NCBI GenBank assembly: GCA_027450185.1
Contig: DAIDKF010000002.1
Span: 117,672-153,208 of the forward strand
DNA length: 35,537 bases
Direction: 5' to 3'
From: Granulicella sp.
GTDB lineage: Bacteria; Acidobacteriota; Terriglobia; Terriglobales; Acidobacteriaceae
Shown in pieces: positions 2,740-35,357 of this stretch (positions are counted from its first letter, which is position 1; every line of letters begins with the position of its first letter). The notes under the pieces are model-generated. The model was not told where the DNA came from, ran no database searches, and was given only the letters and a program-made list of their open reading frames with translations. The position numbers were made by a program, and so were the translations under genes.

Positions 2740-4251
2740 ATGAATCTTAGGAACTTTCTGAACTCTATCGTAGGGATACCTCTGGCCACGGTGTTCTTTG
2801 CGGGTGGCCTCGCATGGGCACAGACATCCTCTGCTGCTGCTCCGGCAACCACCGCTCCTGCAGCCGGTTCGCCGATAAGCTTCAATATCTACGAGCGCAA
2901 TCGCACCGATGCGTATAACTGGTACGCAGACCCTCCCTACACCACTACCTACCCGTTCGTGGAGCAGTTACTCCGGGTCAGCGTAGCGCAGCAGATTCGG
3001 CGCTTCGACTGGCTGCTCGAACTCGCCTCGAACGATAGCTTCGATCTGCCAACCACGGCGGCCTCTACTGTCGCCGCGCAAGGTGCGCTAGGCCTGGGCG
3101 GAAACTACTATACCGCAAACGCCAACACCACGCCTGCTGCTGTCGCGCTGAGGCAGGGGTACATTCGTGCCCGCGCAGCGGGCCCGGACACCAGCCTGCG
3201 GCTCGGCCGCTTCGAGTTCTTTGATGGACTGGAGACTCACCCCAAGGATTCCACCCTTGCATGGTTGCAGGATAACCGCGTCGCGCAGCGGCTCATCGGA
3301 AACTTCGGGTTCTCCACCGGCCAGCGCAGCTTCGATGGCATCGACGGCCACTACGGCAAAGGTTCATGGGACATAACGGCAATGGCTGGACGCGCTACGC
3401 AAGGTGTCTTCAACATGAACTCCAACCCGGAGATCAATGTTGACCTGCAGTACCTCGCCTACAGCAAATATCAATTCAGCCATCGCATGTTGTGGAGGGC
3501 GTTTGCCATCGACTATCACGATGGGAGAACCGGCATCGTCAAGACCGACAACCGGCCGCTGGCCATCCGCCAGGCCGACCATAAGAACATCCGTGTGGGC
3601 AGTTATGGCGCGGACATGCTCTCGTCCACGCCCGCAGGCTCGGGCGAGTTCGATGTTGTCTTGTGGGGGGTGCTGCAGAACGGCAACTGGGGAGCTCTTA
3701 CGCAGCATGCAGGTGCGTTCGCCGCCGAGGCTGGCTACCGGCTAACATCGCTGGCCAGCAAGCCCTGGCTGCGCGCCGGCTACTTCCGCAGCACCGGCGA
3801 CAACCATCCTGCCGACTCCGTGAACAACACCTTCTTCCAGATTCTCCCCACCGCGCGTGCCTACGCCCGCTTCCCGTTCTATAACCTGATGAACAACAAG
3901 GATGAATTTGCGGAGATCGTCGATACACCGGGGAAAAGACTCACGCTGCGTTCGGACCTCCATTTCCTGCAGTTAACCTCGAGCTCAGATCTCTGGTATC
4001 AGGGCGGCGGAGCCTACGATAATCTTGTCTTCGGCTATGCCGGGCGTCCGGCGGGCGGAAGCAACAGCCTGGCGACCGTTTTCGACATAAGCTCTGACTA
4101 TCAACTCACCCGAACGCTCGCGCTGAACCTCTATTACGCTCATGCCGCGGGCAAGTCTGTGGTAGCCGCCGACTATCCAGCCGGTTCTGCCGCTAACTTC
4201 GGTTACCTTGAGCTTCTTTATAAGTGGGGAACGGGGGCGGCTCGCAAGTAG
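2740..4251 (+). CDS. Outer-membrane beta-barrel protein, alginate-export-like
   Basis: The product is 503 residues. It starts with a signal peptide (MNLRNFLN... hydrophobic core ... AWA-Q, cleavage near residue 27) and an Ala/Thr/Pro linker, then alternating polar/aromatic strands typical of a beta-barrel (for example TSLRLGRFEFFDGLE and GYIRARAAG). The pattern resembles the Alginate_exp family of outer-membrane channels, which move anionic or oligosaccharide substrates; the substrate here is unknown. The ATG at 2740 was chosen over the GTG at 2707 because AAGGGA lies 6 bases before it and the signal peptide begins cleanly there. A LacI-type operator upstream, shared with the GH3 beta-glucosidase, suggests a role in glycoside uptake. 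It may equally be a structural barrel of another family; that it is a secreted barrel is fairly sure. Confidence 0.75.
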   Translation: MNLRNFLNSIVGIPLATVFFAGGLAWAQTSSAAAPATTAPAAGSPISFNIYERNRTDAYNWYADPPYTTTYPFVEQLLRVSVAQQIRRFDWLLELASNDSFDLPTTAASTVAAQGALGLGGNYYTANANTTPAAVALRQGYIRARAAGPDTSLRLGRFEFFDGLETHPKDSTLAWLQDNRVAQRLIGNFGFSTGQRSFDGIDGHYGKGSWDITAMAGRATQGVFNMNSNPEINVDLQYLAYSKYQFSHRMLWRAFAIDYHDGRTGIVKTDNRPLAIRQADHKNIRVGSYGADMLSSTPAGSGEFDVVLWGVLQNGNWGALTQHAGAFAAEAGYRLTSLASKPWLRAGYFRSTGDNHPADSVNNTFFQILPTARAYARFPFYNLMNNKDEFAEIVDTPGKRLTLRSDLHFLQLTSSSDLWYQGGGAYDNLVFGYAGRPAGGSNSLATVFDISSDYQLTRTLALNLYYAHAAGKSVVAADYPAGSAANFGYLELLYKWGTGAARK

Positions 4252-17659: not shown

Positions 17660-20431
17660 TTAAAGGCTATGTCCTAAGCCCATGCCGTGCTCGATGACTG
17701 GCGAGATTTCTGGCTGTGGCGGCTTGATGGATTGCTCCGGCTTTATCGCTGGCGTGTGGGCGCTTTCGTGAGATACGTCATGCCCTAATGCTTGCGGCAG
17801 CTTTGCGCGGTCATTGGTATAAATCTGCGCGTCCTCTGCGCCACGCGAGACGGCAACATAGGCCATGCGGCTGTTGAGCAGGTCTTTCGCGGCCAGCTCG
17901 GTATCGACGTGAATCAAGACGCGCTCGGCAGTCTGCCCCTGGCTGGAATGGCTCGTCACCGCATAACCGTGATCGAGATGCGGGTGTTCGCGGGGATCGA
18001 GTTGCACATTGCGGCCTCCGTCCATCTTCAAACGCATCTGTCCGCCCTCGATGGCTTCGACCGTTCCTAATTCGCGGTTGGCAATCTTCAAGTCGTTGGC
18101 TGGCGCGGTGAACTGGATGCGGTCGCCAACGGCGAAGCTGCGCGGTTCTTCCCGATACACGGACACGCCCTGCTGCCTGCGAGGATCATAGGTCAGCTCT
18201 GAACCATCGGCCCGCACCACGGTTAACAGGTTCTTGTCAGCGTCAACGCTCTTGACCCGCGCGTATTCCCCACGCTCCATGCCAGTCTCTTTCGATGCGC
18301 GAGCGTAGCGCACTACATCGTTGAACTCGTACCGCGTGGCCCATGTCCGCTCCGGCCCGGTGAGGTCTTGGCGCGGTACAAGCGCCTCGATGCGATGTTC
18401 GTCTTTGCTGACTGAGCCGCGCTCCTGCATCTCGGCACGGATGCGCTCATTGATCTCCACGCGGGAACGATTGTCGGGGGAGACGACCAGCGTGCCTTCT
18501 GGCGACTTCGCGTATTCCTTCGCTATGGCTGTAATGCGTTCCTCGCGTCCCGCAATCTCATGGACGCGGCCCTGCCGCTCCAAGCCTTGCACCGCTTCGC
18601 GCACCTCGCCCCGCGCAAGCTGCTCGACCACCTGTTTCAACTCCGGGTTTTTCTGGCGGACGATCTCTTCGAGCCTTACCGTTTTCATGCCCGCGTCCTG
18701 AAGCTGCGCGAAGGGACGCCCGGCCTCGATTGCCTCATGCTGTCTCCGGTCGCCCACCAGCAACACGCGGTCGTTCGGATGCAGGCGGTTCACAAACTCG
18801 TGCATCTGCTTGGTGGACGCAAGCGAGGATTCATCGAGCACATACAGGCGGCGTTCTCCGGTGTCCGGCTTTTCTCCACGCGCAAGATGTTTTTGCAGCG
18901 TGGATGTTTCCATGCCTGCATCGGCCAGCTTTTGCGCCGCGCGGGACGTGGGCGCGAAGCCTTCGACCTTGTACCCTTGTGCCTCCGCGCCTTCTCGGAT
19001 GGCGGCCAGCGTCGTTGTCTTGCCCACACCGGCGACGCCATCTATCCCGACAATCTTTTCGCGGGAAAGAAACACTTGGTCAACGGCTTGGCGCTGCGAG
19101 ACATTCAGCTCCGGGTAGCGGTCTTCCGTCGTAATCCGAATCTGCGGAGAAACGAGCATCGGGTCACTCACCCCGCGCTGATTGCCTTCCTGCATCCGTG
19201 TGATGATTTCGCGTTCCATGCGAAGCATCGCGGCAGTGGTGTACTGCTGCCCTGCGCCGCCATGAGCGACGGTGCGGAACTCACCTCGTGCGGCCCGCTG
19301 CTCGAACTCCTGCCGGACGTGGGCATACGTTGTTTCACCCATGCCGCGATTGAGCGCCGCTTCCAGAAGGTCGCGTCTATCCAGCACGGCGGAACGCTCG
19401 AAGAGATGATCGCGGGCATACGTAACGGCCTGTTGCGCGGCCACGGTGCTCCGATTCAGCGCGGGTTCGTGAACGTGGCGCTGTCCACGCTCCCGCGCCT
19501 CCGCCACAACCCGGTCGGCCTGATGTCCATACTGCGCGGCCAGATTCCGATGCCTCTCTAATACCTGTTCCGGCGATAGCAGTTCCTTGCTGTCCCGCGT
19601 TCGGTGTGCCGCAACCTGCGCGGCTCCCGCTCCGTCTATCCCCATCTCTCGGAGATGGTCTTTGATCTGCTCGCGACGTGGGCTGCTGGCCTCCAGATAC
19701 TCTTTCGTATAGCCCTTGATCTCCGGCTGTCCGTGCTTGCCGCGCTCCAGCTCATAGCCCAACCCCTGCAACCGCATCGAAAGCTTGGAGCGGTAAACGC
19801 TGGTGGCGTAGCGTTGCGAAGCAAATAACTCCTGCGGCTGCAAGGCGCGGGTTTGTCCGTTGTCGCGCTCGGTGACATTGAAGATCACGGCATGGGTGTG
19901 GAGCTGCGGCGCGGCGTAGCCGTCCACAGGCCGCGCGGTATCGTGCTCGAAGGTAGCCGCAACGAATTTGCCTGTCGTCTCTGGAGCATGGACATTGCCG
20001 ATGCGTGCCTGCGTGTACTTCTCCAACTCGATGAGCGCCACGCGGACACTTTCCCGATGCGCCTCTCGCACGCGCTCATCGCCGCCGACAAGTGCGGTGA
20101 GTGAAACAGACTTCGGCGCGGAGAACGTAGCATCCCAACCGGCGCGATGTTCTACACTCGTTACTTCCTTGCCGAATTTACCTTCATAGGTTTTGGAGGC
20201 TTGATGGCGAACGAGCTGCGCTTCTGTGGTTGGGTGCTGGCCTTCGGTCAATCTGGCAAAGTGCTCATTGCCAACCGGACCCGATAAGCCCCACTGCTCG
20301 GCCAGCCTGCCTTGCCACTCGCTATGCCCCTGCTGGTCGCGGCTCCAATAGTTCTGCCGCTCAGAGGCAAACTCCCGCTCATGGTACGTCCGTACCTGCG
20401 AGGCTGACAGCGGCTTGGAAATCGTCAGCAT
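17660..20431 (-). CDS. MobF-family conjugative relaxase/helicase (TraI/TrwC type)
   Basis: The product is 923 residues. The N-terminal TrwC relaxase domain has candidate nicking tyrosines Tyr16 and Tyr28 and the metal-binding histidines His163 (FEHDTAR), His178 and His180 (LHTHAV). The C-terminal half is a RecD-like helicase with Walker A GVAGVGKTTT (Lys471), Walker B VLDESSL, the motif LVGDRRQHEAIEAG, and a UvrD_C_2-like end (HGYAVTSHSSQGQTAERV, YVAVSRGAEDAQI). It nicks one strand at oriT, stays bound to the 5' end and unwinds the plasmid for transfer. It works with the coupling protein encoded at 21841-23826, although a cargo gene lies between them in the opposite direction. The ribosome-binding site is weak, but the relaxase domain normally begins with MLTI, so the start is good. 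The stop is within 130 bases of the truncated receptor. Confidence 0.95.
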   Translation of the reverse strand: MLTISKPLSASQVRTYHEREFASERQNYWSRDQQGHSEWQGRLAEQWGLSGPVGNEHFARLTEGQHPTTEAQLVRHQASKTYEGKFGKEVTSVEHRAGWDATFSAPKSVSLTALVGGDERVREAHRESVRVALIELEKYTQARIGNVHAPETTGKFVAATFEHDTARPVDGYAAPQLHTHAVIFNVTERDNGQTRALQPQELFASQRYATSVYRSKLSMRLQGLGYELERGKHGQPEIKGYTKEYLEASSPRREQIKDHLREMGIDGAGAAQVAAHRTRDSKELLSPEQVLERHRNLAAQYGHQADRVVAEARERGQRHVHEPALNRSTVAAQQAVTYARDHLFERSAVLDRRDLLEAALNRGMGETTYAHVRQEFEQRAARGEFRTVAHGGAGQQYTTAAMLRMEREIITRMQEGNQRGVSDPMLVSPQIRITTEDRYPELNVSQRQAVDQVFLSREKIVGIDGVAGVGKTTTLAAIREGAEAQGYKVEGFAPTSRAAQKLADAGMETSTLQKHLARGEKPDTGERRLYVLDESSLASTKQMHEFVNRLHPNDRVLLVGDRRQHEAIEAGRPFAQLQDAGMKTVRLEEIVRQKNPELKQVVEQLARGEVREAVQGLERQGRVHEIAGREERITAIAKEYAKSPEGTLVVSPDNRSRVEINERIRAEMQERGSVSKDEHRIEALVPRQDLTGPERTWATRYEFNDVVRYARASKETGMERGEYARVKSVDADKNLLTVVRADGSELTYDPRRQQGVSVYREEPRSFAVGDRIQFTAPANDLKIANRELGTVEAIEGGQMRLKMDGGRNVQLDPREHPHLDHGYAVTSHSSQGQTAERVLIHVDTELAAKDLLNSRMAYVAVSRGAEDAQIYTNDRAKLPQALGHDVSHESAHTPAIKPEQSIKPPQPEISPVIEHGMGLGHSL

Positions 20432-21840: not shown

Positions 21841-23826
21841 TCACTCGATCCCTTTGGACTCATCCCACACAAACGCTTCTTTGGGTTTATCGGTGGGCTT
21901 GTCGGCAGGCGCATCGAAAAGTGGGAGTGTAGCCTGGGCTGCTGCTGGTATCCTGGGTTGCTCTGTGCGAACTATCGGCATGGCCGGTGACGGCCTGGGC
22001 GCAATCTCCGGTAACTTGCGCTCGATAAACTCCAGTTGTCCTCCGCGCTTCTTTGCGAACTGAAAGTGAACCGGAACGACTTTATTTTCCTGCTTGATGA
22101 AACCGTGCAGCGGCTCCAGGCCGGAGATTTCCGAAGCCATGACAAGCGGCTTGGTCGCAATCTCCATTGCATACGATTTCCTGCTGCCGAGCAGCCTCAT
22201 GCTGCGCGATTCCTTCAGCCGCTCAACCTCGACCTCTCCGATAGCATCGGAAATCCACTTGGCCGCGCGTGGCTCGGTGGTCTTGAAAAACAGCTTGGTC
22301 GCGGGTTGCGAAAGCATAGCTTCGGCGTCCTGCCCGTAGCGTTTTTCAAGCTGGCTGCGTCCCTGAAAACCCACCACAACGGGATTGCCGTACTTGCGAT
22401 TTTCCGTGACGGCAGTGTGGAGTTGCGGCAGTTTGTTGAGGCTCGCCAGCTCGTCCAGCACAAACCATACCGGCTTCGCCGTGTGGTCTTCGCAGTACCC
22501 CATCATGCGCAGGATGAATAAATCGAGCCACACGGAATGCAGAGGCAAAATCTTCGCACGATAAGCCGGAGTGGAAGTCAGAAACACCCATCGCTTCCGG
22601 TTGGTGTACCACTCCGCCGTCGCAAATGTCGGCCTCGTATGCTCCCATTCCGGCAACAGTTCTAAGCTATCGGCCACCATGTTTAAGCTCGCCAGCACAC
22701 CGGCCCGCTGCGCCGGTGCTCCCGCATCGAGCAGCGCGGCCAGCGGCGTTCCTTTCACCGCAAACTCGATCCGCGACGGCTCGGCCATCATGCTCAGAAT
22801 GTCCCTCGGCTGCGGCTGCCGCTTGAGCAGATGGGCCAGTATCCGGCGCGGCCCATCGGTAAAAAACTCCTTTTCGTACTCTTTTTCCGGCAGGAACGCG
22901 GCGGTAATCGTCGCCGCTGTTTCGTCGCGGTCGATCTCGTTGCCAAGACTCCAATACGGGCATCTCTGATCCAGCGGATTGAGAATCAAATCACCACGTG
23001 CGGGCGAGTAAAACTCGCTTACAAAATCCATCGCTGGGTCATAAACGATGGCGCTCTCTCCGCGCTCCCGCACCTGCCGGAGAAGCTGCCGGATGGCGTT
23101 GGACTTCCCGCTGCCAGTGTCACCCATCATCAGCATGTGGCTGGCTTCAAGGCGCTTTGGCACCCGGTAGCTTGGCCCGACTGGAAGCCATCGCAAAAAG
23201 CGATTCTCGAAGTGCAGACGGAAACGGATGCCGTCTGTTTTAGCGCCGCGCCACCGCAAAGCCGATGCCAGCTCCGGGCCTTTGGTTCTGCGTCCGTGAC
23301 GTTCTTCCTGCTGCCGACTCCGGGCAAAACCTTGCTTCATCCAAAGCCGGAGCACATAGAGCAGCATCAGCACGGCAAGGCTGTTGAGCATGGGACGACC
23401 AAATAACCACCACACGCTCACCCCGTCATAAACGTAGTCGCGCAATCCTTTGGCGAGACTGTCTGCGGGCACTTTCTCCGGGGCGCTGTAAGCCACCCCG
23501 CGCCATCCCTCCGCGATGGCTTTGGGCGAGAGACCGACCGGCAGTTTCCTGTCCGGGCCTTTCACTACATCCTCGGCGGAAGCGGGAACCGGCTTCCGCT
23601 TGGGAGCCGTCTTCATTACCCACCGGATCGTCATTTCGCTGTGCGGCATCCCGGCCCCTACGGAACTGGCGGCATAGGTCGGAAGGTAGACCGTCTGGAG
23701 CGGTTCGAGCGTCCAGTAGAGCCATAGCGAAGCCGGGAAGATGAGGACAAGCGGGCCGAGGGCAAGCCAGAACAGGAACCAGAACAGCCGTCCCGTCCGG
23801 CTTGGGAAACGCATCGGGCGACTCAC
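21841..23826 (-). CDS. VirD4/TraD-type conjugative coupling ATPase
   Basis: The product is 661 residues. Two N-terminal transmembrane segments (about 13-35, FWFLFWLALGPLVLIFPA; and about 146-163, LNSLAVLMLLYVLRLWM) are followed by the cytoplasmic ATPase with Walker A GDTGSGKSN (Lys241) and Walker B VWFVLDELASL (Asp458-Glu459). TraG/TrwB-like motifs such as GFQGRSQLEKRYG and KLFFKTTEPRAAKWISDAIG are present. It pumps the relaxase-DNA complex into the type IV secretion channel; no channel (trb/vir) genes are in the window. Its start overlaps the upstream small gene by four bases (ATGA), showing translational coupling. The C-terminal 50 residues are proline-rich and probably flexible. Confidence 0.94.
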   Translation of the reverse strand: MSRPMRFPSRTGRLFWFLFWLALGPLVLIFPASLWLYWTLEPLQTVYLPTYAASSVGAGMPHSEMTIRWVMKTAPKRKPVPASAEDVVKGPDRKLPVGLSPKAIAEGWRGVAYSAPEKVPADSLAKGLRDYVYDGVSVWWLFGRPMLNSLAVLMLLYVLRLWMKQGFARSRQQEERHGRRTKGPELASALRWRGAKTDGIRFRLHFENRFLRWLPVGPSYRVPKRLEASHMLMMGDTGSGKSNAIRQLLRQVRERGESAIVYDPAMDFVSEFYSPARGDLILNPLDQRCPYWSLGNEIDRDETAATITAAFLPEKEYEKEFFTDGPRRILAHLLKRQPQPRDILSMMAEPSRIEFAVKGTPLAALLDAGAPAQRAGVLASLNMVADSLELLPEWEHTRPTFATAEWYTNRKRWVFLTSTPAYRAKILPLHSVWLDLFILRMMGYCEDHTAKPVWFVLDELASLNKLPQLHTAVTENRKYGNPVVVGFQGRSQLEKRYGQDAEAMLSQPATKLFFKTTEPRAAKWISDAIGEVEVERLKESRSMRLLGSRKSYAMEIATKPLVMASEISGLEPLHGFIKQENKVVPVHFQFAKKRGGQLEFIERKLPEIAPRPSPAMPIVRTEQPRIPAAAQATLPLFDAPADKPTDKPKEAFVWDESKGIE

Positions 23827-26180: not shown

Positions 26181-26216
26181 TCAAAGCGCGGCCACACAGC
26201 CGCGCTTTGATTTTTT
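26181..26216 (+). terminator. Strong Rho-independent terminator
   Basis: A perfect 12-base stem (26181-26192 with 26199-26210) with a 6-base loop CACACA is followed by six T residues (26211-26216). It ends the protease transcript 30 bases after its stop and isolates it from the mod gene. Confidence 0.93.
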
Positions 26217-26319
26217 GGCGTCGCGTGAGATCCCATGCAGACCAGCGCCAGCGCGAATTAGAATCCTGATTGACCAACTTTTTCAGCGCAGACAACACAA
26301 AAGACGGAGCAGGGGCACG

Positions 26320-28527
26320 ATGGCAAGGCTGACGGAACAGGAACAGCAGGAAGTGGTCCGGTTTATTGAAGCAGGCAAACCCCTGCCCGATAAGTACCGC
26401 TTTCTTCTCTTCGATGACAAACGCGAAGTGGAGCTTGTGTGGAATGGCAAGACCAACGAAGTCACCAACGTGGTGCTGCCGTTTCAGGTGATTGAGCAGG
26501 TGGATGAACCGCGCGCCGAAAAGCCGGAAGAGATGGCAGTGCAGCCTGGGCTGTTCGATGCGCGTGGGCGTCAGTTGAAGGGATGGACCAACAAACTCAT
26601 CTGGGGCGAAAACAAGTTGATTCTTTCCTCACTCAAGAACGGACCATTGCGCGATGAGATTGAAGCGCAGGGCGGCCTGAAGCTCATCTATATTGATCCG
26701 CCGTTTGATGTGGGCGCGGACTTCAGCATGGATATTGAGATTGGAGATGAGCATTTCACGAAAAAGCCTGGCATCCTTGAAGAAATTGCTTATCGTGATA
26801 CGTGGGGGCGCGGAACAGATTCATTCATGGCGATGATTTATGAGCGCCTGATTCTGATGAATGACCTTCTCGCGGATGATGGAAGCATATTTGTTCATTG
26901 TGATTGGCGTGTTAGTCCTCTTCTCCGCATGGCGATGGGTGAGATATTTGGTCCAGATAGTTTTCAGAATGAAATCTACTGGTATTACTACAACAAACTG
27001 CATGGCGCAACAAAACAAGTGTTTCCGCGAGCGACAGATACGATTCTCTACTATGTCAAGAACCGTGAAGCGGGCTACACCTTTCAGCACCTAACGGAAC
27101 CGAGAGAGAAGCCAATCAAGAAGCTCAAATATAGCTTTGTTGGAGGGAAGATCGTCAACGACAAGGATGCATCAGGGAAGACGATTACATATTTGAGCAC
27201 CGAACGACAGATTGACAATGTATGGCGGATAAGGTGTCTTCAGCCCGCAGACCAGAAAGAATGGCTAGGCTATCCAACACAGAAACCACAAGATTTGATT
27301 GAGCGAATCATACAGGCTGTAACCAAGCCGGGAGATATTGTTGCGGACTTCTTCTGTGGTTCAGGTAGCTGTCTTGCAGCAGCAGAATCATTCGGGCGCA
27401 AGTGGATTGGTACTGACCTGGGAAAGTTCGCCATCCATACCACGCGCAAACGTATGATTGGCGTTCAGCGCCAGTTGAAGACCGATGGTAAAAACTATCG
27501 CGCCTTTGAGATTCTGAACCTTGGCAAGTATGAGCGCCAGCATTATGTTGGCGTGAATCCGAATCTGCGCGAGGCCGAACAGCAGGCCCAACTTGCAGCC
27601 AAGGAGGCCGAATTTCTGGCGCTGATACTTCGTGCCTATGGCGCGGAAAAGACGGATGGTTTTGCCACCTTCCACGGCAAGAAGGCCGGACGACTCGTTT
27701 CCGTTGGTCCAGTAAACCTGCCCGTGACACGCCTCTATGTGGAGGAAGTGATTGCTGAATGCCGTCAAAAACGGATTACCCGCGTGGACATTTTGGGCTT
27801 TGAATTTGAGATGGGCCTGTTTCCCAACGTGCTGGATGAGGCTCGCGCGAAGGGTATCGACATTGCGCCCAAGTACATTCCTGCCGAGGTATTCGATAAG
27901 CGCGCCGTTGAAAAGAATCAGGTGCGTTTCCACGATGTCTCCTACATCGAAGTAAAGCCGCATATAGGAAAGAGCGAAAACGGCTTTCCGACCGTGGCTG
28001 TCGAGTTGACCGACTTTAGCGTTTATTACTCGCAGGGTTCCATCAAGCAGTCCGAGTCCACGCTGAAGCCGGGAGGCAGTGCGGTTGTTGTGGAGAAGGG
28101 CCAGATCGTCAAAGTCTCGAAAAGCAAGAGCGATGTGGTGACGCGCGAAGTGCTGACAAAGAAGTGGTCCGACTGGATTGATTATTGGGCTGTGGACTTT
28201 GACTTTGAGAGCAAGCGCGAGATTATCCGCAAGCCTATCGTGCCGGATGACAGGCTGCCGGGTATCGAAGCTGACCAGCAGGCGCTGGAAGCCTATGAAG
28301 AGGTCTGGACGGGCGACTACATCTTTGAAAACGAATGGCAGACCTTCCGCACTAGAAAGGATCGCAGCCTGGAGTTGAAATCGGTTGCCAAAGAGTGCGT
28401 GCCGGGCAGACGCAAGATTGCCGTCAAGGTGGTAGACATCTTCGGAAATGACACGATGACGATTGTGGAAGTGAGCCTGGGCGAAGCAGGCGCGAAGCCG
28501 AGCAAATCCGGTAAGGGGGCAAAGTAA
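26320..28527 (+). CDS. mod: Type III restriction-modification methyltransferase subunit
   Basis: The product is 735 residues, an adenine-specific DNA methyltransferase. Motif IV is LIYIDPPFDVGADF (Asp126-Pro-Pro-Phe) and comes before motif I, DFFCGSGSCLAAAESF (343-358), so the order IV-TRD-I places it in the beta class used by Type III Mod proteins. The segment between them is the likely target-recognition region. The C-terminal half (from about 400) is a long extension typical of Mod subunits that contact Res. It sets sequence specificity and protects the host by methylation. The ATG at 26320 has AGGGG 5 bases before it; an upstream in-frame ATG at 26215 lies inside the terminator hairpin tail and is unlikely. 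Its TAA shares the A with the ATG of res (TAATG). Confidence 0.93.
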   Translation: MARLTEQEQQEVVRFIEAGKPLPDKYRFLLFDDKREVELVWNGKTNEVTNVVLPFQVIEQVDEPRAEKPEEMAVQPGLFDARGRQLKGWTNKLIWGENKLILSSLKNGPLRDEIEAQGGLKLIYIDPPFDVGADFSMDIEIGDEHFTKKPGILEEIAYRDTWGRGTDSFMAMIYERLILMNDLLADDGSIFVHCDWRVSPLLRMAMGEIFGPDSFQNEIYWYYYNKLHGATKQVFPRATDTILYYVKNREAGYTFQHLTEPREKPIKKLKYSFVGGKIVNDKDASGKTITYLSTERQIDNVWRIRCLQPADQKEWLGYPTQKPQDLIERIIQAVTKPGDIVADFFCGSGSCLAAAESFGRKWIGTDLGKFAIHTTRKRMIGVQRQLKTDGKNYRAFEILNLGKYERQHYVGVNPNLREAEQQAQLAAKEAEFLALILRAYGAEKTDGFATFHGKKAGRLVSVGPVNLPVTRLYVEEVIAECRQKRITRVDILGFEFEMGLFPNVLDEARAKGIDIAPKYIPAEVFDKRAVEKNQVRFHDVSYIEVKPHIGKSENGFPTVAVELTDFSVYYSQGSIKQSESTLKPGGSAVVVEKGQIVKVSKSKSDVVTREVLTKKWSDWIDYWAVDFDFESKREIIRKPIVPDDRLPGIEADQQALEAYEEVWTGDYIFENEWQTFRTRKDRSLELKSVAKECVPGRRKIAVKVVDIFGNDTMTIVEVSLGEAGAKPSKSGKGAK

Positions 28528-31226
28528 TGGCCCTGCATCCGAAGTTTCCAAGCTCACCATACACGATTCTGGCCCCGGAGATTCGCTGGTTTCCCGCCGA
28601 TGAGACGCTGCGCGAAACAAGTGCAGACAAACTGATGCCGCCGCTTGTGCCAACGCTGCGTAAGAAGGTGAAGGAATGGCGTGATAGCGGCTATGTGGGC
28701 GCGAGCGATACCAGCCGTAGTCTGCTGAACTGGTGGTTTGTCGAACAGAAGCTATGGCCGCAGCGGGATGGCACATTAGCCGAGTTTCAATACTACTTTG
28801 CACAGCGCGAGGCTATAGAGACCATCGTTTACCTGTACGAAGTAGTGGGCGCAAAGGACAAGCATGACCTGATGCGCTTTGACTCTTCAGGGCTGGTAAG
28901 CGGCGGTATGTTCGATGAGAACTGGTTGCGGCTGGTCGTCAAAATGGCAACGGGTTCGGGCAAAACGAAAGTGTTGAGCCTGGCGCTGGCGTGGAGCTTC
29001 TTTCACAAGACGTATGAGGCGGAGTCGAATCTGTCGCGCAATTTTCTGGTGATTGCACCGAACATCATTGTGCTGGACCGCATTCGCAAGGACTTCGACG
29101 GGCTGCGTATCTTCCTGAAAGATGATCCAGTGCTGCCTGAGAATGGCCGCGATGGGCGCAACTGGCGAGATGATTTCCAGTTGACGCTGCATATTCAGGA
29201 CAACGTGCATGTGACACAGAAGACCGGCAACATCTTTCTGACGAATATCCATCGTGTCTATGCGGGCAATGAGGTACTGCCCACGGCTGACGATGACGAT
29301 ACGATGGATTACTTCCTGGGGCCGCGTCCAACGGGCGCGACTACGGACCAGAGAGTTGACCTGGGCATGATTGTCCGCGAAATTGACGAGTTGATGGTGC
29401 TGAACGATGAGGCGCACCATATCCATGACGCGGGCCAGGAATGGTTCAAGTCGATTCAGGATATTCACAATCGGCTATTGCAGAAAGACGGGGCGCTGTC
29501 GCTTCAGGTAGACGTGACAGCGACACCGAGGGCGAACAACGGCGCTATCTTTGTCCAGACCGTCAGCGATTACCCGCTGGTGGAGGCGATTGCGCAAAAC
29601 GTGGTGAAGCATCCTGTTCTGCCTGACGGGCCGAGCCGGGCCAAACTGGTGGAACGGCAGAGCGCCAAGTACACGGAGAAGTATTCGGACTACCTTGACC
29701 TGGGCGTGATTGAGTGGCGTAAGGCGAAGGATGAGCATGAAAAAGTAGGCAAAAAGGCCATCCTGTTTGTGATGACCGATGACACGCGCAACTGCGATGA
29801 CGTTGCCGAGTACCTGCGTGGGCATTACCCGGAGCTTGCCGGGGACGCCACGCTGGTCATTCATACGAACAAGAACGGCGAGATTTCCGAGTCTACTTCC
29901 GGCAAGAACAAGGAAGAGTTGGATAAGATGCGTGAACAGGCTAATTCCATCGACGGATGGGACAACCCCGCGCGAGCCATCGTTTCCGTGATGATGCTGA
30001 AGGAAGGTTGGGACGTTCGCAATGTGACCACGATTGTGGGCCTGCGCGCGTACTCGGCCAAGAGCAACATTTTGCCTGAGCAGACGCTAGGGCGCGGGCT
30101 GCGCAAGATGTATCCGGGCGGGGTGGAAGAGTATGTCAGCGTGGTGGGTACAGACGCCTTCATGGACTTCGTGGAGTCAATCAAAAACGAGGGCGTAGAG
30201 CTTGAGAAAAAGCCGATGGGCGAAAAAACCGCGCCCAAGACGCCGCTGATGATCGAGGTGGACGAAGAGAACGAAAAGAAGGACATCGACGCGCTGGATA
30301 TTGCGCTGCCCCGACTGACGCCGAGGGTTTATCGGGAGTACAAGAACCTAAGCGAACTGGACGCGGGTGGGATGGGGCACGCTGAAGTGCTCTATCAGCA
30401 CTTCAGCGAGGAAGAGCAGCGCCATATTGTCTTTAAGGATGTGACCACGGGCGAGGTGACGCATACGACCGTGCTGGATACGGCGGGGATTGCAGACTAT
30501 CGGAACGTGGTCGGTTACTTTGCCCAGACGGTTATGAAAGACCTGCGCCTGGTGAGCGGGTACGACGTGCTCTATGCCAAGGTAAAGACGTTTGTGCGGG
30601 ACCATCTTTTTGGGCAAGAAGTGGACCTTGAAGCGCCGAATACGCTGCGCAACCTGTCAGAGCTGGCAGCAACGAAGACGATTCTGGATAGCTTCAAGAA
30701 AGCCATCAATGCGCTGACTGTCCGCGAAAAGGGTGAGGCCGAGATTCGGGATCATATCAAGCTCCGCGAGACCCGGCCCTTTGTAGTGAAGGAACAGGGT
30801 TATGTGGTCTCAAAGAAGAGCGTCTTTAACCGCACGATTGGCGATAGCGGCCTGGAATTGAAGTTCGCGGGTTTTCTGGAGACCTGCGAAGATGTGACCT
30901 CTTACGCCAAGAACTACATGGCCGTGGGCTTCAAGCTGGACTATGTGACGGTGGACGGCAGCATTTCCAATTACATCCCCGACTTCATCGTGAAGCTGGA
31001 CGATGGCGTGATTTGGATAGTGGAGACCAAAGGCCGTGAGGATGTGAACGATCCGGGCAAGTGGGAACGGCTTCAGCAGTATTGCGGCGATGCAAGCAAG
31101 CTGGATTCCGGGCAGCAGTACAGGGCGCTATTTGTCAGGGAAGAGGAGTGGGACAAGTACAGTGGCAAGCTCAAGGGCTTCCATGATGCCGTAAAAGCAT
31201 TTGAAACAGCCCAATCGAGCATATAA
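28527..31226 (+). CDS. res: Type III restriction endonuclease subunit
   Basis: The product is 899 residues. A superfamily-2 helicase core has Walker A MATGSGKTKV (Lys146), Walker B/DEAH VLNDEAHH (Asp294-His297) and motif III VDVTATPRANNG. A RecA-like second half includes SVMMLKEGWDVRNVTTIVGLR and EQTLGRGLRKMY. The C-terminal PD-(D/E)XK nuclease shows Asp819 (YIPDFIVKLDDG) and Glu833/Lys835 (IVETKGRED). It translocates on DNA and cuts when two Mod-Res complexes meet in head-to-head orientation. It overlaps mod by one base, so the pair is one operon. It ends 28 bases from the RT gene, which reads the other way, with no evident terminator. Confidence 0.94.
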   Translation: MALHPKFPSSPYTILAPEIRWFPADETLRETSADKLMPPLVPTLRKKVKEWRDSGYVGASDTSRSLLNWWFVEQKLWPQRDGTLAEFQYYFAQREAIETIVYLYEVVGAKDKHDLMRFDSSGLVSGGMFDENWLRLVVKMATGSGKTKVLSLALAWSFFHKTYEAESNLSRNFLVIAPNIIVLDRIRKDFDGLRIFLKDDPVLPENGRDGRNWRDDFQLTLHIQDNVHVTQKTGNIFLTNIHRVYAGNEVLPTADDDDTMDYFLGPRPTGATTDQRVDLGMIVREIDELMVLNDEAHHIHDAGQEWFKSIQDIHNRLLQKDGALSLQVDVTATPRANNGAIFVQTVSDYPLVEAIAQNVVKHPVLPDGPSRAKLVERQSAKYTEKYSDYLDLGVIEWRKAKDEHEKVGKKAILFVMTDDTRNCDDVAEYLRGHYPELAGDATLVIHTNKNGEISESTSGKNKEELDKMREQANSIDGWDNPARAIVSVMMLKEGWDVRNVTTIVGLRAYSAKSNILPEQTLGRGLRKMYPGGVEEYVSVVGTDAFMDFVESIKNEGVELEKKPMGEKTAPKTPLMIEVDEENEKKDIDALDIALPRLTPRVYREYKNLSELDAGGMGHAEVLYQHFSEEEQRHIVFKDVTTGEVTHTTVLDTAGIADYRNVVGYFAQTVMKDLRLVSGYDVLYAKVKTFVRDHLFGQEVDLEAPNTLRNLSELAATKTILDSFKKAINALTVREKGEAEIRDHIKLRETRPFVVKEQGYVVSKKSVFNRTIGDSGLELKFAGFLETCEDVTSYAKNYMAVGFKLDYVTVDGSISNYIPDFIVKLDDGVIWIVETKGREDVNDPGKWERLQQYCGDASKLDSGQQYRALFVREEEWDKYSGKLKGFHDAVKAFETAQSSI

Positions 31227-31254: not shown

Positions 31255-32220
31255 TCAGAGTCCTTTCTTGAGAGCTTCCTGAAACCGCTTTTTCAAAGTA
31301 ACCGCATCGTCTGCGCAAATCCGCTCAATATGATTGAGCCTGCCCTCTACGCTTGTGATGTACCGCGTTCTTTCATGCTTACCGATACGACCGACTTCCA
31401 GCTTATGAATCGCGGCTCGAATGTCATGCAGTTTGTCTTTGGGTGCTCTAATGCGTCCGGCTCCGAGCCTGATGCCCGTTATCACCTTCGGGGCGCGGCC
31501 CGCTAAGATGATCCGCTTTTTCGCTGACAGCTTGAATCCATTGGCGGCAAGGATTTGACGAACTGGCTCCATAACGGAGCGCGCATTTTCACCGGAAAAG
31601 ATTAGGTCATCCACCCATGCAGTAGCCATAATGCCCTGCGCGGAGCACGCTTCAAGAACCGGCCCATAGATGGACGCCAGATAGAGGTTGGCAAGAGCCG
31701 GACTCGTCGGTGCACCTTGTGGAAGATGCCATTCGTATGTCGTCAGTTGAGTTAGAAGACCTGCGATTGCGGGGGAGCATAGCAGAATGTGACGCCATAC
31801 AAAATAGACATGCCGATTCGTCACGTTCGGATAGTAGCTCTTGATGTCCATTTTTACGACGGTTCCGCGTCCAATGTGCTCCATCGCATGTTTGTTGACG
31901 CACCTGCTCCGAACCGCTCCAAAGAGAAAATGGGGCAGTTTTACAGGCAGGAGAAGGCGGTTCAGAATCTTTTTCTGAACTGCCTTCAACGCTTCTGAAG
32001 GATTGTCAATATCACGAGTTTTTCCGGTCTTTATCTCGCGCTGAAAAGGCTTAGGCTCTTTCGTTTGCTGGAAAGGGTCGTATTCAGCGCGCCAGTTCTT
32101 TGCGAGAGCGCGAAGCACCTCCCGGTCCTCGCCCAGACGATATTCGAGATCGCGGAGGCTGAGGATCGGCACTCTTGAGCGGTCTTCGCCGCTCTTGATT
32201 TCCTTCAGTCGGTTCGTCAC
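31255..32220 (-). CDS. Retron-like reverse transcriptase
   Basis: The product is 321 residues, the usual size for retron reverse transcriptases. Palm motifs are VVKMDIKSYYPNV (Asp125), HLPQGAPTSPALANLYL (168-181), the catalytic WVDDLIFSG (Asp204-Asp205) and PKVITGIRLG (246-250), a retron VTG-like element. HAMEH (111-115) matches the position of the retron NAxxH motif. Retrons make covalent RNA-DNA hybrids (msDNA) that arm an effector in anti-phage defence. The WVDD in place of the common YADD is unusual and worth a look. The GTG start at 32220 has AGAGGT just before it and lies 137 bases inside the HTH gene. A structured leader lies upstream of the small gene at 32543. No group II intron domain X or endonuclease is present. 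Confidence 0.87.
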   Translation of the reverse strand: MTNRLKEIKSGEDRSRVPILSLRDLEYRLGEDREVLRALAKNWRAEYDPFQQTKEPKPFQREIKTGKTRDIDNPSEALKAVQKKILNRLLLPVKLPHFLFGAVRSRCVNKHAMEHIGRGTVVKMDIKSYYPNVTNRHVYFVWRHILLCSPAIAGLLTQLTTYEWHLPQGAPTSPALANLYLASIYGPVLEACSAQGIMATAWVDDLIFSGENARSVMEPVRQILAANGFKLSAKKRIILAGRAPKVITGIRLGAGRIRAPKDKLHDIRAAIHKLEVGRIGKHERTRYITSVEGRLNHIERICADDAVTLKKRFQEALKKGL

Positions 32221-32503
32221 TTGATACCTCTAAGAGCAATTTCGTTAGAGCTAAGGAAAGACTTGCAATCTGTTCGTGCGAAGCTTTCCGTACATCTGTT
32301 TCTTCGCTACCCAAAAGGCTGAGTAGATGGAATGGAAGTTTGAGAGCGTTTGCGATTTTTTCGATGGTTTCTACGGACGGCTTTCGCTTGCCTGATTCGA
32401 TTAGGGAGAGATAGCTCCGATCAATCTCTGCCCGATCTGCAAGCTCGCCCTGTGAAATGTCCGCCAGCGAGCGGGCGACGCGAATTGCTTTGGAATAGTT
32501 CAT
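32084..32503 (-). CDS. Xre-type helix-turn-helix protein
   Basis: The product is 139 residues. Residues 7-60 form a Cro/C1-type HTH (VARSLADISQGELADRAEIDRSYLSLIESGKRKP), with recognition helix around RSYLSLIESG. A short helical stretch (about 66-92) follows. The last 45 residues (RRRPLKSADPQPPRSRISSGRGPGG) are read in a different frame from the RT start and look non-homologous. Its final 137 bases overlap the start of the RT gene. It may regulate the cassette or be the effector/accessory protein of a retron; HTH-containing partners occur in some retron classes. A frameshift could join it to RT as a fusion. Start: ATG 32503. Confidence 0.82.
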   Translation of the reverse strand: MNYSKAIRVARSLADISQGELADRAEIDRSYLSLIESGKRKPSVETIEKIANALKLPFHLLSLLGSEETDVRKASHEQIASLSLALTKLLLEVSSDEPTEGNQERRRPLKSADPQPPRSRISSGRGPGGASRSRKELAR

Positions 32504-32542
32504 ATATGCCCCGTTATGGTTAAGAAACAGGCTCCCTGGAAC

Positions 32543-32770
32543 TCACTCACCCGATCCAGACTTCAGAATCTCGAATGCTGCTTCGGCGATTTGGCTCACC
32601 ACTTTGAAGACTTGTTTGTGGGTGAGTTTGGTCGCACGCTGCAACCGCTTCAGATCACGGATGCCCTTCTTGAGCTTGCTCTGCTGTTCCGACGACAGTT
32701 CGTTGTTGGGGTCTCCTAGCATCTTCCTGAGCAGGTCGATGCAAGAGTCGATTTGCTTCGTTGTATTCAT
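32543..32770 (-). CDS. Small helical protein of the RT cassette
   Basis: The product is 75 residues from ATG 32770, with AGGAGG 6 bases before it, a strong ribosome-binding site that decides the start over the in-frame CTG-side 32812 option. The sequence (MNTTKQIDSCIDLLRKMLGD, KKGIRDLKRLQRATKLTHKQ, VVSQIAEAAFEILK) is nearly all alpha-helical and charged, with no transmembrane segment. I do not recognise a family. It lies 40 bases upstream of the HTH gene on the same strand, after the structured leader, and its strong ribosome-binding site suggests high expression. It could be a structural partner, an antitoxin or the effector. Function unknown. Confidence 0.75.
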   Translation of the reverse strand: MNTTKQIDSCIDLLRKMLGDPNNELSSEQQSKLKKGIRDLKRLQRATKLTHKQVFKVVSQIAEAAFEILKSGSGE

Positions 32771-32835
32771 ATTTCCTCCTCCGGTTATTACCGGGGGCGT
32801 AGCGGCAGGCACCAGAGTGGAATTACGAACTGTGT

Positions 32836-32990
32836 CAGGAGCCGTTTCTTTGTGCGGAGCCGAGCGACGATGGGGCGTGGCTGGCTGCCAGTCAGCCGAT
32901 GTGACTGTCTGGACTTTGAAAGGCAGAGGTTACCTGCCGAGGGGCCAGTAGTGGCACCTCATTACGCCTACTGCAAGCAGCAGGCTCCTG
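32836..32990 (-). ncRNA. Candidate structured leader (retron msr-msd-like)
   Basis: On the minus strand, upstream of the 75-residue gene, CAGGAGCC (32990-32983) pairs with GGCTCCTG (32843-32836). Within this 155-base bracket sit hairpins at 32966-32985 (one G-U pair), 32944-32955, 32922-32938 and 32879-32897. Further perfect hairpins lie just upstream at 33035-33051 and 33081-33102. An AGC follows the GG of the left arm, as at retron msr starts. TTGACA (33021-33016) could be a -35 box, but the -10 is weak. The bracket and the innermost hairpin share three bases, so the true fold is unresolved. Confidence 0.35.
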
Positions 32991-33080
32991 GAACCGTTGG
33001 ACTACGCCAGAGGATTGTCAAAGAGCAATCGAACATCGGCGGTGCGCCGATACAAATTCAGAGTAGTCGCATTTCGGCGC

Positions 33081-33102
33081 GGAGTCAACAAAAAATGACT
33101 CC
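33081..33102 (-). other. Perfect hairpin near the RT leader
   Basis: GGAGTCA (33081-33087) and TGACTCC (33096-33102) are perfect reverse complements around ACAAAAAA. Read on the minus strand the loop is T-rich. It may belong to the leader RNA or insulate the two divergent units. Confidence 0.4.
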
Positions 33103-33175: not shown

Positions 33176-33466
33176 ATGGCTACTGGTACTGCAAGGAAAT
33201 CGAAGGTCTACACGATCAGCTTGCCGCCGGAACTCGCGCAGAGGGCTGAGGCACTGGCGCAGCGAGACAGCCGCACCATGAGCGAACTGTTCCGCGAAGC
33301 CTTCCGCACCTATTCCGCGCAGCAGGCGCGAGCAACGCTGGCTGAACTGGGCGAGTATGCGGCAGGCCGTAATCCCAAGGGCTACACCGAGGCCGATGTA
33401 CCCCGCCTCATCAAAGAAGTGCGCGCCGAGAAGCCGCGCCGCCGCAAGGTACGGTCTAACGGGTGA
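33176..33466 (+). CDS. RHH (CopG-like) antitoxin
   Basis: The product is 96 residues. KVYTISLPPELAQRAEALAQR (10-30) followed by MSELFREAFRTYSA is a ribbon-helix-helix domain, a strand then two helices, that binds DNA as a dimer. The rest, rich in Arg/Lys and Glu, is the presumed toxin-binding tail. Its stop overlaps the GTG of the PIN gene (GTGA), so both are translated together. The operator palindrome upstream is probably its own target. No strong ribosome-binding site is seen. Confidence 0.87.
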   Translation: MATGTARKSKVYTISLPPELAQRAEALAQRDSRTMSELFREAFRTYSAQQARATLAELGEYAAGRNPKGYTEADVPRLIKEVRAEKPRRRKVRSNG

Positions 33467-33861
33467 TCGTCGTCGTAGACACAAACGTTTGGATTTCCGC
33501 GCTTCAATTTGCGAAAGGTCGCGGCACGCCAACGCTGGCACTTGAAAAAGCGATGAGCGAAGACGTGATTGCCACCTGCGATGAGATTGACGCAGAGATT
33601 GTGCGCGTCCTGACGGAAAAGTTCTCTTGGGAACATCACCGCGCAATATTGGCGCTGCAAACGATTCTGGCGCGCGGCATCCGTGTAAAGATTCGAGGCA
33701 CGGTAAAGGTCTGCCGTGATCCAAATGACGATATGTTTCTGGAGTGCGCCGCCCTTGCGAAAGCGGATTTGCTGGTTGCAGGGGACAAGGATTTGCTGAT
33801 TCTGGGCACGTACAAGGGAACGCGCATTATCACTCCCTCGGAATATCTGCGGGCCGGATAG
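33463..33861 (+). CDS. PIN-domain toxin
   Basis: The product is 132 residues and belongs to the COG1569-like putative-toxin PIN family. Acidic residues that bind catalytic Mg are Asp6 (VVVDTNVWIS), Glu45 (DEIDAEIVRVL), Asp90 (PNDDMFLECA) and Asp108 (VAGDKDLLIL). It is probably an RNA nuclease held inactive by the RHH protein. The GTG start at 33463 overlaps the antitoxin stop by four bases. Such pairs stabilise mobile elements or act in defence. The full catalytic set is intact. Confidence 0.9.
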   Translation: MIVVVDTNVWISALQFAKGRGTPTLALEKAMSEDVIATCDEIDAEIVRVLTEKFSWEHHRAILALQTILARGIRVKIRGTVKVCRDPNDDMFLECAALAKADLLVAGDKDLLILGTYKGTRIITPSEYLRAG

Positions 33862-33878
33862 AATCATCCGGCCACTGC

Positions 33879-34895
33879 TCAGAGATAAGCATGGCCGTAA
33901 ACCGCCGGAGCGATATTTATCGCTCCGGCTGCGGGGATGCCGCTGACAGCGGCATCCCCGGCGTTTTCGGTTGTCTCGTTCTCTTCCTCAAACGTGCTGC
34001 CGAGAATCAGGTCTACGGCTCTCTGCGCGTTGGCGGCGGCATGAACGATGAGGCGGTTATCCTCTTCCAGCTTTTCAATCCAGTTCTGAATGTACGCGGT
34101 GGTATTTCGGTCAGTGTGCTCGTTTGCGATACCAGCGATAGCGCAAAGAAAAGCGGCTCCCATCTCTGCAACTAATTCCTCCTTGCTGTAAAGCTCATCT
34201 CCAAAACGGTCGCCAAAGGTACGATGCAAGCGGCTTTCGTGCCCGGTGCTGTGAATCAGCTCATGGAATAAGGTGCTGTAATAGTGCGGCACATCCACGA
34301 ACCGGGAGCGGGCGGGCATGTGTACGGAATCGGTAGATGGCCGATAGTAAGCGCGGTACTCCGTGGGGGTGTTGAGATGGAGCGCGGGGCGGTTCTCCCA
34401 GCCGGTGACAATGCTGTCGCAAAGCTCGTCCTCGTCAACTTCCGGCGCGATGGCAGGCTGCGAGATTTCGGGGAGCGTGAGGCCGTCGCACTGCTCCACG
34501 TTGAAAACCGTGTAGTGGCAAAGAACGAACGGCACGCGCTCATCGTCGCCCGTTGCTGCGTCGTCTTTCTTCGCATGTTCGGGAAGCTGCTTGTAAAAAA
34601 TAATCTGCGTTCCGTGCTCACCCTTGCGAACAGTGCCTTTCAATGCCTGGGCCTGCTTGAACGTAAGCCAAAATGGAGAGCTATATTCGCTCGACCAAAG
34701 CAAGAGAACATTGATGCCACGGTAGGGCTTGCCAGTGTAGAAGTTGCGCGGGAACGGGCCGCCTGCATAGCGCGGCGTCTTCCACGGCTTTTCCCACGGA
34801 ATCACACCTGCTTTGAGGCTGGAAATAATACGGTCAGTGACGGTCTGATAGATGCTCGGCCTGCTGGCTGCGTTGCAGTGGTTGCGGTATGCCAT
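33879..34895 (-). CDS. ArdC-like anti-restriction protein
   Basis: The product is 338 residues. The N-terminal half (SIYQTVTDRIISSLKAGVIPWEKPWK ... RNFYTGKPYRGINVLLLW ... KGTVRKGEHGTQIIFY) is the ArdC single-stranded DNA-binding domain (DUF1738). The C-terminal half is a zincin-like domain with HELIHSTGH (His211-Glu-Leu-Ile-His215) and EELVAEMGAAFLCAIAG. ArdC proteins protect entering plasmid DNA from the recipient's restriction enzymes. ATG 34895 was chosen over 34970 because it has AGGAG upstream and starts the conserved domain. The end of the gene is built over two perfect palindromes (33904-33960), giving a C-terminal tail AAGAINIAPAVYGHAYL of unusual composition. It faces the toxin gene end-to-end (17 bases apart). 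Confidence 0.92.
   Translation of the reverse strand: MAYRNHCNAASRPSIYQTVTDRIISSLKAGVIPWEKPWKTPRYAGGPFPRNFYTGKPYRGINVLLLWSSEYSSPFWLTFKQAQALKGTVRKGEHGTQIIFYKQLPEHAKKDDAATGDDERVPFVLCHYTVFNVEQCDGLTLPEISQPAIAPEVDEDELCDSIVTGWENRPALHLNTPTEYRAYYRPSTDSVHMPARSRFVDVPHYYSTLFHELIHSTGHESRLHRTFGDRFGDELYSKEELVAEMGAAFLCAIAGIANEHTDRNTTAYIQNWIEKLEEDNRLIVHAAANAQRAVDLILGSTFEEENETTENAGDAAVSGIPAAGAINIAPAVYGHAYL
33904..33929. repeat. First of two perfect palindromes in the ardC 3' end
   Basis: GCCGGAGCGATA (33904-33915) pairs perfectly with TATCGCTCCGGC (33918-33929) across TT. It lies within the coding part of the ardC-like gene and after the end of the toxin gene. Confidence 0.85.
33932..33966 (+). terminator. 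Second palindrome, likely terminator of the toxin-antitoxin unit
   Basis: A 14-base stem (33932-33945 with 33947-33960) is perfect, with a single unpaired base. On the plus strand GCGTTTTC follows, so the hairpin plus T-run could end toxin-antitoxin transcription while lying inside the ardC-like gene. Confidence 0.7.
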
Positions 34896-35357
34896 GACGT
34901 TTGCTCTCCTGTGCTGCCCGCGTGGGGCGAGATTCTGAAGGAGGGCTTTTCGCCTTTGGCTCTCAACCAAATTTCTTTTGTTGAGCGCCCCCGCTTCATG
35001 TCTTGTGCGGCGGGCGGAGACGAGGCGGGTTCGGTCAAGGGCGCGCGTACTCTGCGCGTTTATGGAGCGTCAGCGAACACCCTTGACGGGTTCCGACCGG
35101 CTCTGCCATAAAGCCGCATGAAGCGGGGGCACTGGATAAAAGAAGAAATTTCGGTCTATTTCCGCATGATTTTAGGGAGGGGCGTTGCGGGGAAGGAACG
35201 GCCCCGCATGGATGGGAAGCGGAAAACGCCCGGCACTATTGGGCGGTTGCAGCGCGGGAAGGGCGCAGCATCCTTCCCGAAAAGAATGGAAACGATCTGA
35301 ATTGCCTATATCCCGGACTATTGACAAGGGGCAGGCTACGAGCTACACGTTCGGAAG
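34896..35357. other. Non-coding region with nested inverted repeats
   Basis: About 460 bases between the ardC-like start and the next gene hold no convincing coding sequence. They include the leader of the ardC-like gene and the nested repeat listed at 34969-35151. It also holds a 13-base match (ctctgcgcgttta, 35050-35062) to the mob leader at 24360-24372. Confidence 0.6.
34969..35151. repeat. Nested inverted-repeat element
   Basis: GCCCCCGCTTCATG (34987-35000) is the exact reverse complement of 35117-35130, and AAATTTCTT (34969-34977) of 35143-35151. Inside, GTCAAGGG (35034-35041) pairs with CCCTTGAC (35080-35087). A large stem-loop of about 180 bases results. Possible ori, RNA leader of the ardC-like gene, or mobile remnant. 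Confidence 0.65.

Follow-up and report, generated by a model that had tools for sequence, protein, structure and literature searches.

Type VI was reportedly set out as a retron type by Mestre et al. in 2020 and, judging by the literature searched, seems to have been little studied. A type VI retron is described as consisting of a reverse transcriptase (RT), a DNA-binding protein and a small protein (PMC8541194), and PADLOC has the profiles RT_VI, HTH_VI and SP_VI for the type. A second body of work that bears on the locus described here concerns boxA and boxB, which two accounts present as antitermination elements of ribosomal RNA (rRNA) operons (PMC4807359, PMC10250234). The window, by which we mean the whole stretch of DNA analysed, is 35,537 nucleotides (nt) from Granulicella sp. 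(contig DAIDKF010000002.1, positions 117,672 to 153,208, of GenBank assembly GCA_027450185.1, which is 54% complete). On its minus strand, at 31255-33102, a promoter and a structured leader some 260 nt long are followed, in the order of transcription, by a 75-codon open reading frame (ORF), a 139-codon Xre-type helix-turn-helix (HTH) gene and a 321-codon RT gene. We find that this locus is a new member of the type VI retrons, an architecture already known, and we consider it likely that the leader of this type VI retron is its non-coding RNA (ncRNA).

Gene content and assignment to type VI

The three genes of the locus, the last two of which overlap by 137 nt, are as follows.

32543..32770, minus strand: small protein of 75 amino acids, three-helix bundle, presumed effector; AGGAGG precedes the ATG; kept in 13/13 loci
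32084..32503, minus strand: Xre-type HTH protein with a basic tail, 139 amino acids; HTH_VI 4.6e-21; aligned in 12 loci
31255..32220, minus strand: retron RT, 321 codons with a GTG start; PADLOC RT_VI 2.4e-65

With PADLOC the window RT scores best as RT_VI (218.6 bits), followed by RT_III-A (156.8 bits), and RT_VI and HTH_VI also lead for three other loci (L083, L020 and L021). A scan of the whole RT alignment was not discriminating, each of the 25 models listed matching 47/47 members. Searching the PDB with the family profile returned the retron Ec86 RT first (5.7e-58), with a maturase at 1.8e-11 and Drt2 at 6e-07; the solved structures nearest by sequence profile are retron RTs. The group II intron model reaches 30.5 bits on the window RT against a cut-off of 300, and the Drt2 and Drt3a models fall far under theirs. 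The original prediction, made from the letters of the window alone, had allowed for a different RT-based system; among the enzymes compared, an assignment to group II intron RTs or DRT defence RTs was rejected, the maturase, Drt2 and Drt3a matches being distant beside the retron match.

Across 21 aligned RTs there is no variation at H115, D125, D204, D205 and K235, and hardly any at N111 and G249. The window RT has VITG and, at the position of NAxxH, HAMEH; we take NAxxH and VTG to be retron RT motifs. The earlier reading of HAMEH as the counterpart of NAxxH holds in that it is the same motif with N changed to H and with H115 kept; what it loses is the nearly invariant N111.

The original prediction had listed the leader, a small helical ORF with a strong ribosome-binding site, the HTH gene and the RT in that order on the minus strand, and all of these parts are present, with the ORF coordinates confirmed. 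It had also regarded the extra small helical protein as the mark of a possible new subtype. That view is not retained, because a small protein and a DNA-binding protein belong to the published type VI description and because PADLOC has profiles for exactly these parts (RT_VI, HTH_VI and SP_VI), the first two being the best models for the RT and the HTH protein: the unfamiliar architecture is the type VI architecture.

Relatives and phylogeny of the reverse transcriptase

Relatives were sought in 101 related genomes, 396 genomes of the phylum, 399 of the class and a collection of genome contigs. Single-protein scans of genome contigs and viral contigs gave no relatives; a three-row RT alignment used as query gave 11 loci in the genome contigs and 0 in the viral contigs. 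After removal of duplicates (L056, L057, L085 and L091, identical to L089, L090, L002 and L003, respectively), of repeats of the window or of L002 (L001, L022, L053, L054) and of L093, whose RT is cut at a contig edge, the order small protein, HTH, RT was found in 12 further acidobacterial loci (L002, L003, L055, L058, L083, L084, L086, L087, L088, L089, L090 and L092). This gene order is therefore common to 13/13 loci, window included, although the RT of L055 has an in-frame stop. Leaders are readable in 12 of the 13, that of L092 being masked by N and left out. The co-conservation of leader, small ORF, HTH and RT in Acidobacteriota, proposed in the original prediction as a check, is thus found. 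Neither of the two outcomes that were to refute the prediction came about, the comparison of the RT having covered group II intron and DRT enzymes.

The RT tree comprises 47 of the 63 RTs listed; L024 and L037 were omitted for wrongly picked ORFs, L055 for its stop, and L010, L011, L012, L027, L030, L032, L034, L035, L038, L044, L073, L076 and L081 for tree size. In it the window and 11 relatives form one clade of 12 RTs (SH-aLRT 96; L055 absent), next to which stand L020 and L021, both with a small ORF, an HTH gene and an RT. The closest relative is L058 (genome G736), with identities of 52% over the kept columns of the RT, 53% for the small protein and 61% for the HTH protein. The RTs of L061 and L063, whose gene order is that of the window, score best as RT_V. 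Two other loci, L059 and L064, have the order small ORF, HTH, RT, yet their RTs fall outside the type VI part of the tree; that of L059 scores about equally as RT_XIII and RT_VI.

The predicted retron RNA

The leader, taken as 350 nt, folds at -134.9 kcal/mol against a mean of -106.1 for shuffled sequences (z -5.5), and none of 100 dinucleotide shuffles was as low, in agreement with the structured leader first proposed. It is very probably the retron's msr-msd RNA, in which an a1/a2 helix closes off three msr hairpins and an msd arm. The predicted elements are given below.

32796..33014, minus strand: predicted retron ncRNA, a1 to a2; from the a1/a2 permutation test and the unconstrained fold of the window
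32966..32985, minus strand: msr hairpin 1, from the fold; a similar hairpin in L058, L083 and L088; putative priming G at 32987 or 32985
32939..32960, minus strand: msr hairpin 2, from the fold
32922..32938, minus strand: msr hairpin 3, from the fold
32821..32921, minus strand: msd, the presumed reverse-transcribed part, with approximate limits; lies between the msr hairpins and a2
32796..32820, minus strand: a2 strand, the 5' part of which doubles as anti-Shine-Dalgarno (about 32809-32827)

Folded without constraint, the window RNA between boxA and the small ORF forms the closing a1/a2 helix, three consecutive hairpins and further arms, a layout that is the same in the folds of L058 and L088 and broadly so in L083. 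Forcing the best a1/a2 duplex costs the 12 leaders between 0 and 7.2 kcal/mol relative to their unconstrained folds. Whole-leader alignment with MAFFT followed by RNAalifold recovered the boxB hairpin and one short helix only, and for this reason anchored helix tests were used: the own a1/a2 pairing of the 12 leaders beats permuted partners (mean -20.1 versus -15.9 kcal/mol, p=0.00028 with windows anchored post hoc). This value is optimistic, since the windows were anchored after cruder ones had been tried. Rfam gave no match to the leader at gathering scores. The retron nature of the locus, as originally proposed, is upheld by the RT profile and tree, by this msr-msd-like RNA with its a1/a2 helix and by the co-conserved leader and genes.

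Promoter, boxB-like hairpin and boxA

Between the promoter and the predicted ncRNA lie a hairpin and a ten-base element.

33060..33088, minus strand: promoter-like TTGACT, 17 nt, TACTCT; 12/12 leaders have TTGAC spaced 17-18 nt from a -10-like hexamer
33034..33052, minus strand: boxB-like hairpin; covariation over 12 leaders
33014..33025, minus strand: boxA, core TCTTTGACAA; directly after the boxB-like hairpin

The -10-like hexamer matches the consensus at a mean of 3.75 of 6 positions in the 12 leaders, against 2.20 at random. The hairpin shows two-sided changes in 5/9 pairs, and its covariation score was reached by 0/500 shuffles. It is followed in 12/12 readable leaders by the pattern TCTTTGA[C/A]AA, as TCTTTGACAA in 9 and as TCTTTGAAAA in 3. 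The same TCTTTGACAA stands 155-158 nt ahead of the 16S start motif in 7/7 16S genes, from 6 of the 9 family genomes searched, including both 16S copies of G736, the host of L058; no 16S genes were found in G000, G019, G060 or the window's own assembly. Judged by its sequence, the ten-base leader element is the boxA of rRNA operons. Its use as a second -35 was rejected, the corresponding -10 matches (2.17/6) being at the random level (2.20/6).

A covariance model of hairpin and boxA was built from the 12 leaders, which themselves score 39-58 bits. Over 11 genomes it found four places under E 1e-6, the retron loci of G051, G000, G060 and G736, all of them training sequences; the next-best match has E 0.11. 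The rRNA leaders match it weakly (0.04-0.34, 14.5-17.7 bits). Over 89 sources, the fetched loci and the window, non-training matches upstream of an RT were L063 (0.013), L031 (0.016), L020 (0.019), L060 (0.029), L026 (0.17) and L062 (0.48), and the model also matches places unrelated to RT leaders, such as one downstream of the RT in L011 (0.028). Read by eye, L060 shows the complete layout, with its RT gene broken, and the Pseudomonas plasmid locus L049, whose enzyme is an RT_VI, shows a similar hairpin followed by TTCTTTGAA.

In the loci compared for boxA and small-protein class, a non-random sample, boxA patterns were not found before the small ORFs of six RT_VI systems (MuM16-1, P2_2H1, Celeribacter, Azospirillum, Citrobacter and KS5); the sole match in L104 lies inside a coding stretch, and L101 has TTCTTTGAG without a hairpin. 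L061 and L064, whose small ORFs encode 82-83 amino acids, lack the pattern, so that boxA is not strictly tied to the small-protein class. Boxes resembling boxA also occur upstream of RTs at L031 222-244 (plus strand) and L026 401-423 (plus strand); as these RTs score best as RT_III-A and RT_XIII, respectively, boxA may also stand before other retron types. No description of a retron leader with boxA was found in the open literature searched, and absence there does not equal absence from print.

Ribosome-binding site and anti-Shine-Dalgarno pairing

The following element adjoins the start of the small-protein gene.

32775..32794, minus strand: hairpin adjoining the ribosome-binding site, with AGGAGG; covariation over 12 loci

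In this hairpin 96% of cells are paired over the 12 loci, and the covariation score was reached by 4/500 shuffles. At the 5' side of a2, a stretch resembling UUCCUU-UCGG is able to pair with the Shine-Dalgarno (SD) sequence of the small protein. Own anti-SD/SD pairs beat permuted pairs (p=0.0006) and beat letter shuffles at p<=0.05 in 9/12. Scanning in 20-nt windows places the stretch as cut 6th to 41st; in 10/12 loci the top window coincides with it apart from a shift of 2-6 nt, and in L002 and L088 it lies elsewhere. Because the anti-SD and a1/a2 helices share 2-8 nt, they compete. Of the listed SD bases, over half are mostly paired in the ensemble of 11/12 loci, and half in that of L058. 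The pairing of a2 with the ribosome-binding site suggests a coupling of ncRNA folding or reverse transcription with translation of the small protein.

The small protein

The small ORF is taken to be a gene because it is kept in 13/13 loci, because its ratio of nonsynonymous to synonymous substitution rates (dN/dS) is 0.19-0.33 in the four pairs computed (0.33 against L058), indicating purifying selection, and because AlphaFold2 predicts three helices (mean pLDDT 87.6). The small helical ORF with its strong ribosome-binding site thus stands as first described. Foldseek of the model returned generic helix bundles, none at E<=0.001, and matches to SP_VI are marginal (0.0022 and 0.024).

The small proteins of other RT_VI systems are unlike that of the window, and those of RT_VI systems as a whole fall into at least two unlike classes. 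Cationic amphipathic ones of about 48-55 amino acids occur in MuM16-1, P2_2H1 (from an inner ATG), Celeribacter, Azospirillum and Citrobacter, with a longer one in KS5. The small ORFs before HTH-RT at L051 1375-1521, L103 948-1115, L105 952-1107 and L106 957-1115 encode short cationic amphipathic peptides that look membrane-active, unlike the three-helix protein. In L103, on a Celeribacter plasmid, a TIR-domain gene (2373-3338) follows the RT_VI operon.

The HTH protein and a candidate operator

Xre proteins with a dyad over their promoter are usually repressors, and a candidate dyad is present here.

33081..33102, minus strand: inverted repeat GGAGTCA-N8-TGACTCC, which overlaps the -35 and is a candidate operator for the HTH protein; better than letter shuffles of the window, p 0.003

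The pattern GTCA-N4-10-TGAC occurs near the promoter in 10/12 leaders, and the best repeat reaches p<=0.01 in 3/12 only. The HTH protein may, on this evidence, be a repressor of the operon. As the window msd holds GTCACATCGGCTGAC, a dyad common to operator and msd was considered; it was rejected, being present in 1/12 leaders. Conservation is stronger in the HTH protein (dN/dS 0.12-0.15) than in the small protein (0.19-0.33).

Genomic surroundings

The left half of the window consists of ordinary metabolic and envelope genes. A TrwC-type relaxase with helicase domains (17660-20431, minus strand), a sign of a conjugative or mobilisable element, is followed by a partial match to PADLOC mad8 (21841-23826, minus strand; 2.3e-17). 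A type III restriction-modification pair (26215-31226, plus strand; MTase_III 7.3e-107, REase_III 1.6e-16) is convergent with the retron operon, and an RHH-PIN toxin-antitoxin-like pair (33176-33861, plus strand) is divergent from it, with an ArdC-like antirestriction gene beyond (33879-34970, minus strand). The relaxase, the restriction-modification, RHH-PIN and ArdC-like genes are consistent with a mobile element carrying defence cargo.

Discussion

We propose that the retron ncRNA, the small three-helix protein, the Xre-type DNA-binding protein and the retron RT form one operon, most likely an anti-phage (abortive-infection) module. Transcription would start just past the promoter at 33060-33088, with probable repression by the HTH protein at the overlapping dyad. 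The hairpin and boxA would recruit the host Nus complex and, as in rRNA operons, protect the polymerase from Rho-dependent termination while it crosses the untranslated leader; for such leader antitermination, suggested by the sequence elements, we have a modest preference. In the computed fold of the leader as msr-msd, the RT would prime at the G ending a1 and copy the msd from beside a2. Because the 3' end of the template overlaps the SD-masking stretch, ncRNA folding, RT binding or reverse transcription could alter the output of the small protein; the pairing is computed, and control of output by it is something we put forward tentatively, with more doubt than confidence. The small protein could be a toxin held by a complex of RT, multicopy single-stranded DNA (msDNA) and HTH protein until a phage disturbs it, an idea drawn by analogy for which we judge the chances to be even.

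Several findings weigh against parts of this account. The cruder a1/a2 windows used before anchoring gave p=0.79, 0.019 and 0.98, two of the three non-significant, and L002 taken alone lends a1/a2 no support (ranks 10 and 11 of 12). The anti-SD pairing is no better than shuffles in L058, L002 and L088, and the energy difference between masking and a1/a2 runs from -9.2 to +10.4 kcal/mol across the 12 loci, its sign varying so that masking is favoured in 7/12 and a1/a2 in 5/12 (in the window by 1.3 kcal/mol). The type VI loci of G339 and of G157 went undetected by the genome-wide boxB-boxA model, which in G157 gave nothing at E<=1. To these are added the departure from NAxxH in the window RT and the marginal SP_VI match, SP_VI being matched at E<=1 by only 2/13 small proteins.

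That last point, together with an RT whose closest relative found, L058, is no more than 52% identical, the division of RT_VI small proteins into at least two unlike classes and the RT_V scores of L061 and L063 despite the same gene order, could speak for a separate retron type near type VI. We think this improbable, since RT_VI and HTH_VI lead clearly for the window as for L083, L020 and L021, and the gene content matches the type VI description. More improbable still is that the leader is a mere regulatory 5' untranslated region of the small-protein gene and that the RT, like some DRT enzymes, functions with no msr-msd RNA: the RBS-masking pairing (over the ribosome-binding site) and the missing Rfam family would fit, but the a1/a2 covariation and the retron-like fold argue for an msr-msd RNA, and the RT is of retron type with only distant DRT matches.

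Within a type VI retron, the roles of HTH protein and boxA admit other explanations. The HTH protein might be the active output, or form a toxin-antitoxin pair with the small protein as antitoxin or adaptor. Its lower dN/dS and the wide variation of small proteins among RT_VI systems would suit such a role, and the winged-helix protein of a type IX retron binds msDNA (PMC13405049); the promoter dyad, however, fits a repressor on general grounds, and rapid divergence would also suit an effector. We consider this explanation unlikely. A more serious contender, to which we nevertheless give less weight than to antitermination, is that the boxA-like element serves another purpose (RNA processing, or binding of the RT or the HTH protein) or is a leftover. 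In its favour, the hairpin upstream differs from that of rRNA leaders, and the pattern was not found in several RT_VI systems; against this stand the ten-base identity with the family's own rRNA boxA, the order of hairpin then boxA, the conserved place right behind the promoter and the long untranslated RNA for the polymerase to cross.

If boxA is functional, the retron would use the housekeeping rRNA antitermination machinery and so possess a natural sensor of phage takeover of transcription; if the anti-SD switch is functional, effector translation would be gated by reverse transcription itself. The two might be combined in a composite leader, an rRNA-style nut site followed by an msr-msd whose template 3' end is the effector's anti-SD, so that reverse transcription acts as a translational switch. 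We regard the whole of this combination as unlikely. Were it true, copying or non-copying of the msd would free or mask the effector's ribosome-binding site, and phage attack on Nus factors, Rho, RNase H or msDNA would be read out as effector translation. The composite leader would then be the new element, the retron type itself being known. From the locus and its 12 relatives come candidates for an ncRNA and for an effector family, as well as two control elements open to test.

Comparison with known systems

The locus resembles type VI retrons in its RT and HTH profiles, in its small-protein gene, in the order small protein, HTH, RT and in the overlap of the HTH and RT ORFs, and differs from them in its diverged small protein (SP_VI 0.0022) and in the H for N in NAxxH. 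It shares an HTH gene and an RT with a small ORF ahead with the RT_VI systems of Shewanella phage MuM16-1, Peduovirus P2_2H1 and Burkholderia phage KS5, to whose RTs that of the window is 24-29% identical; MuM16-1 and P2_2H1 have short cationic amphipathic small proteins and KS5 another, whereas the window has a predicted three-helix protein. Among RT_VI loci of phages and plasmids, L050-L052, L103, L105 and L106 showed no boxB-boxA leader like that of the window. With the type IX retron Kva2 (PMC13405049), the locus has in common a retron RT, a DNA-binding helper and a separate effector, which in Kva2 is a HEPN RNase and in the window would be the predicted three-helix protein. Finally, the leader is like rRNA boxB-boxA leaders in having a hairpin and then a boxA whose ten-base core is identical to that of the family, and departs from them in that its hairpin sequence is unlike theirs and that it drives a retron operon.

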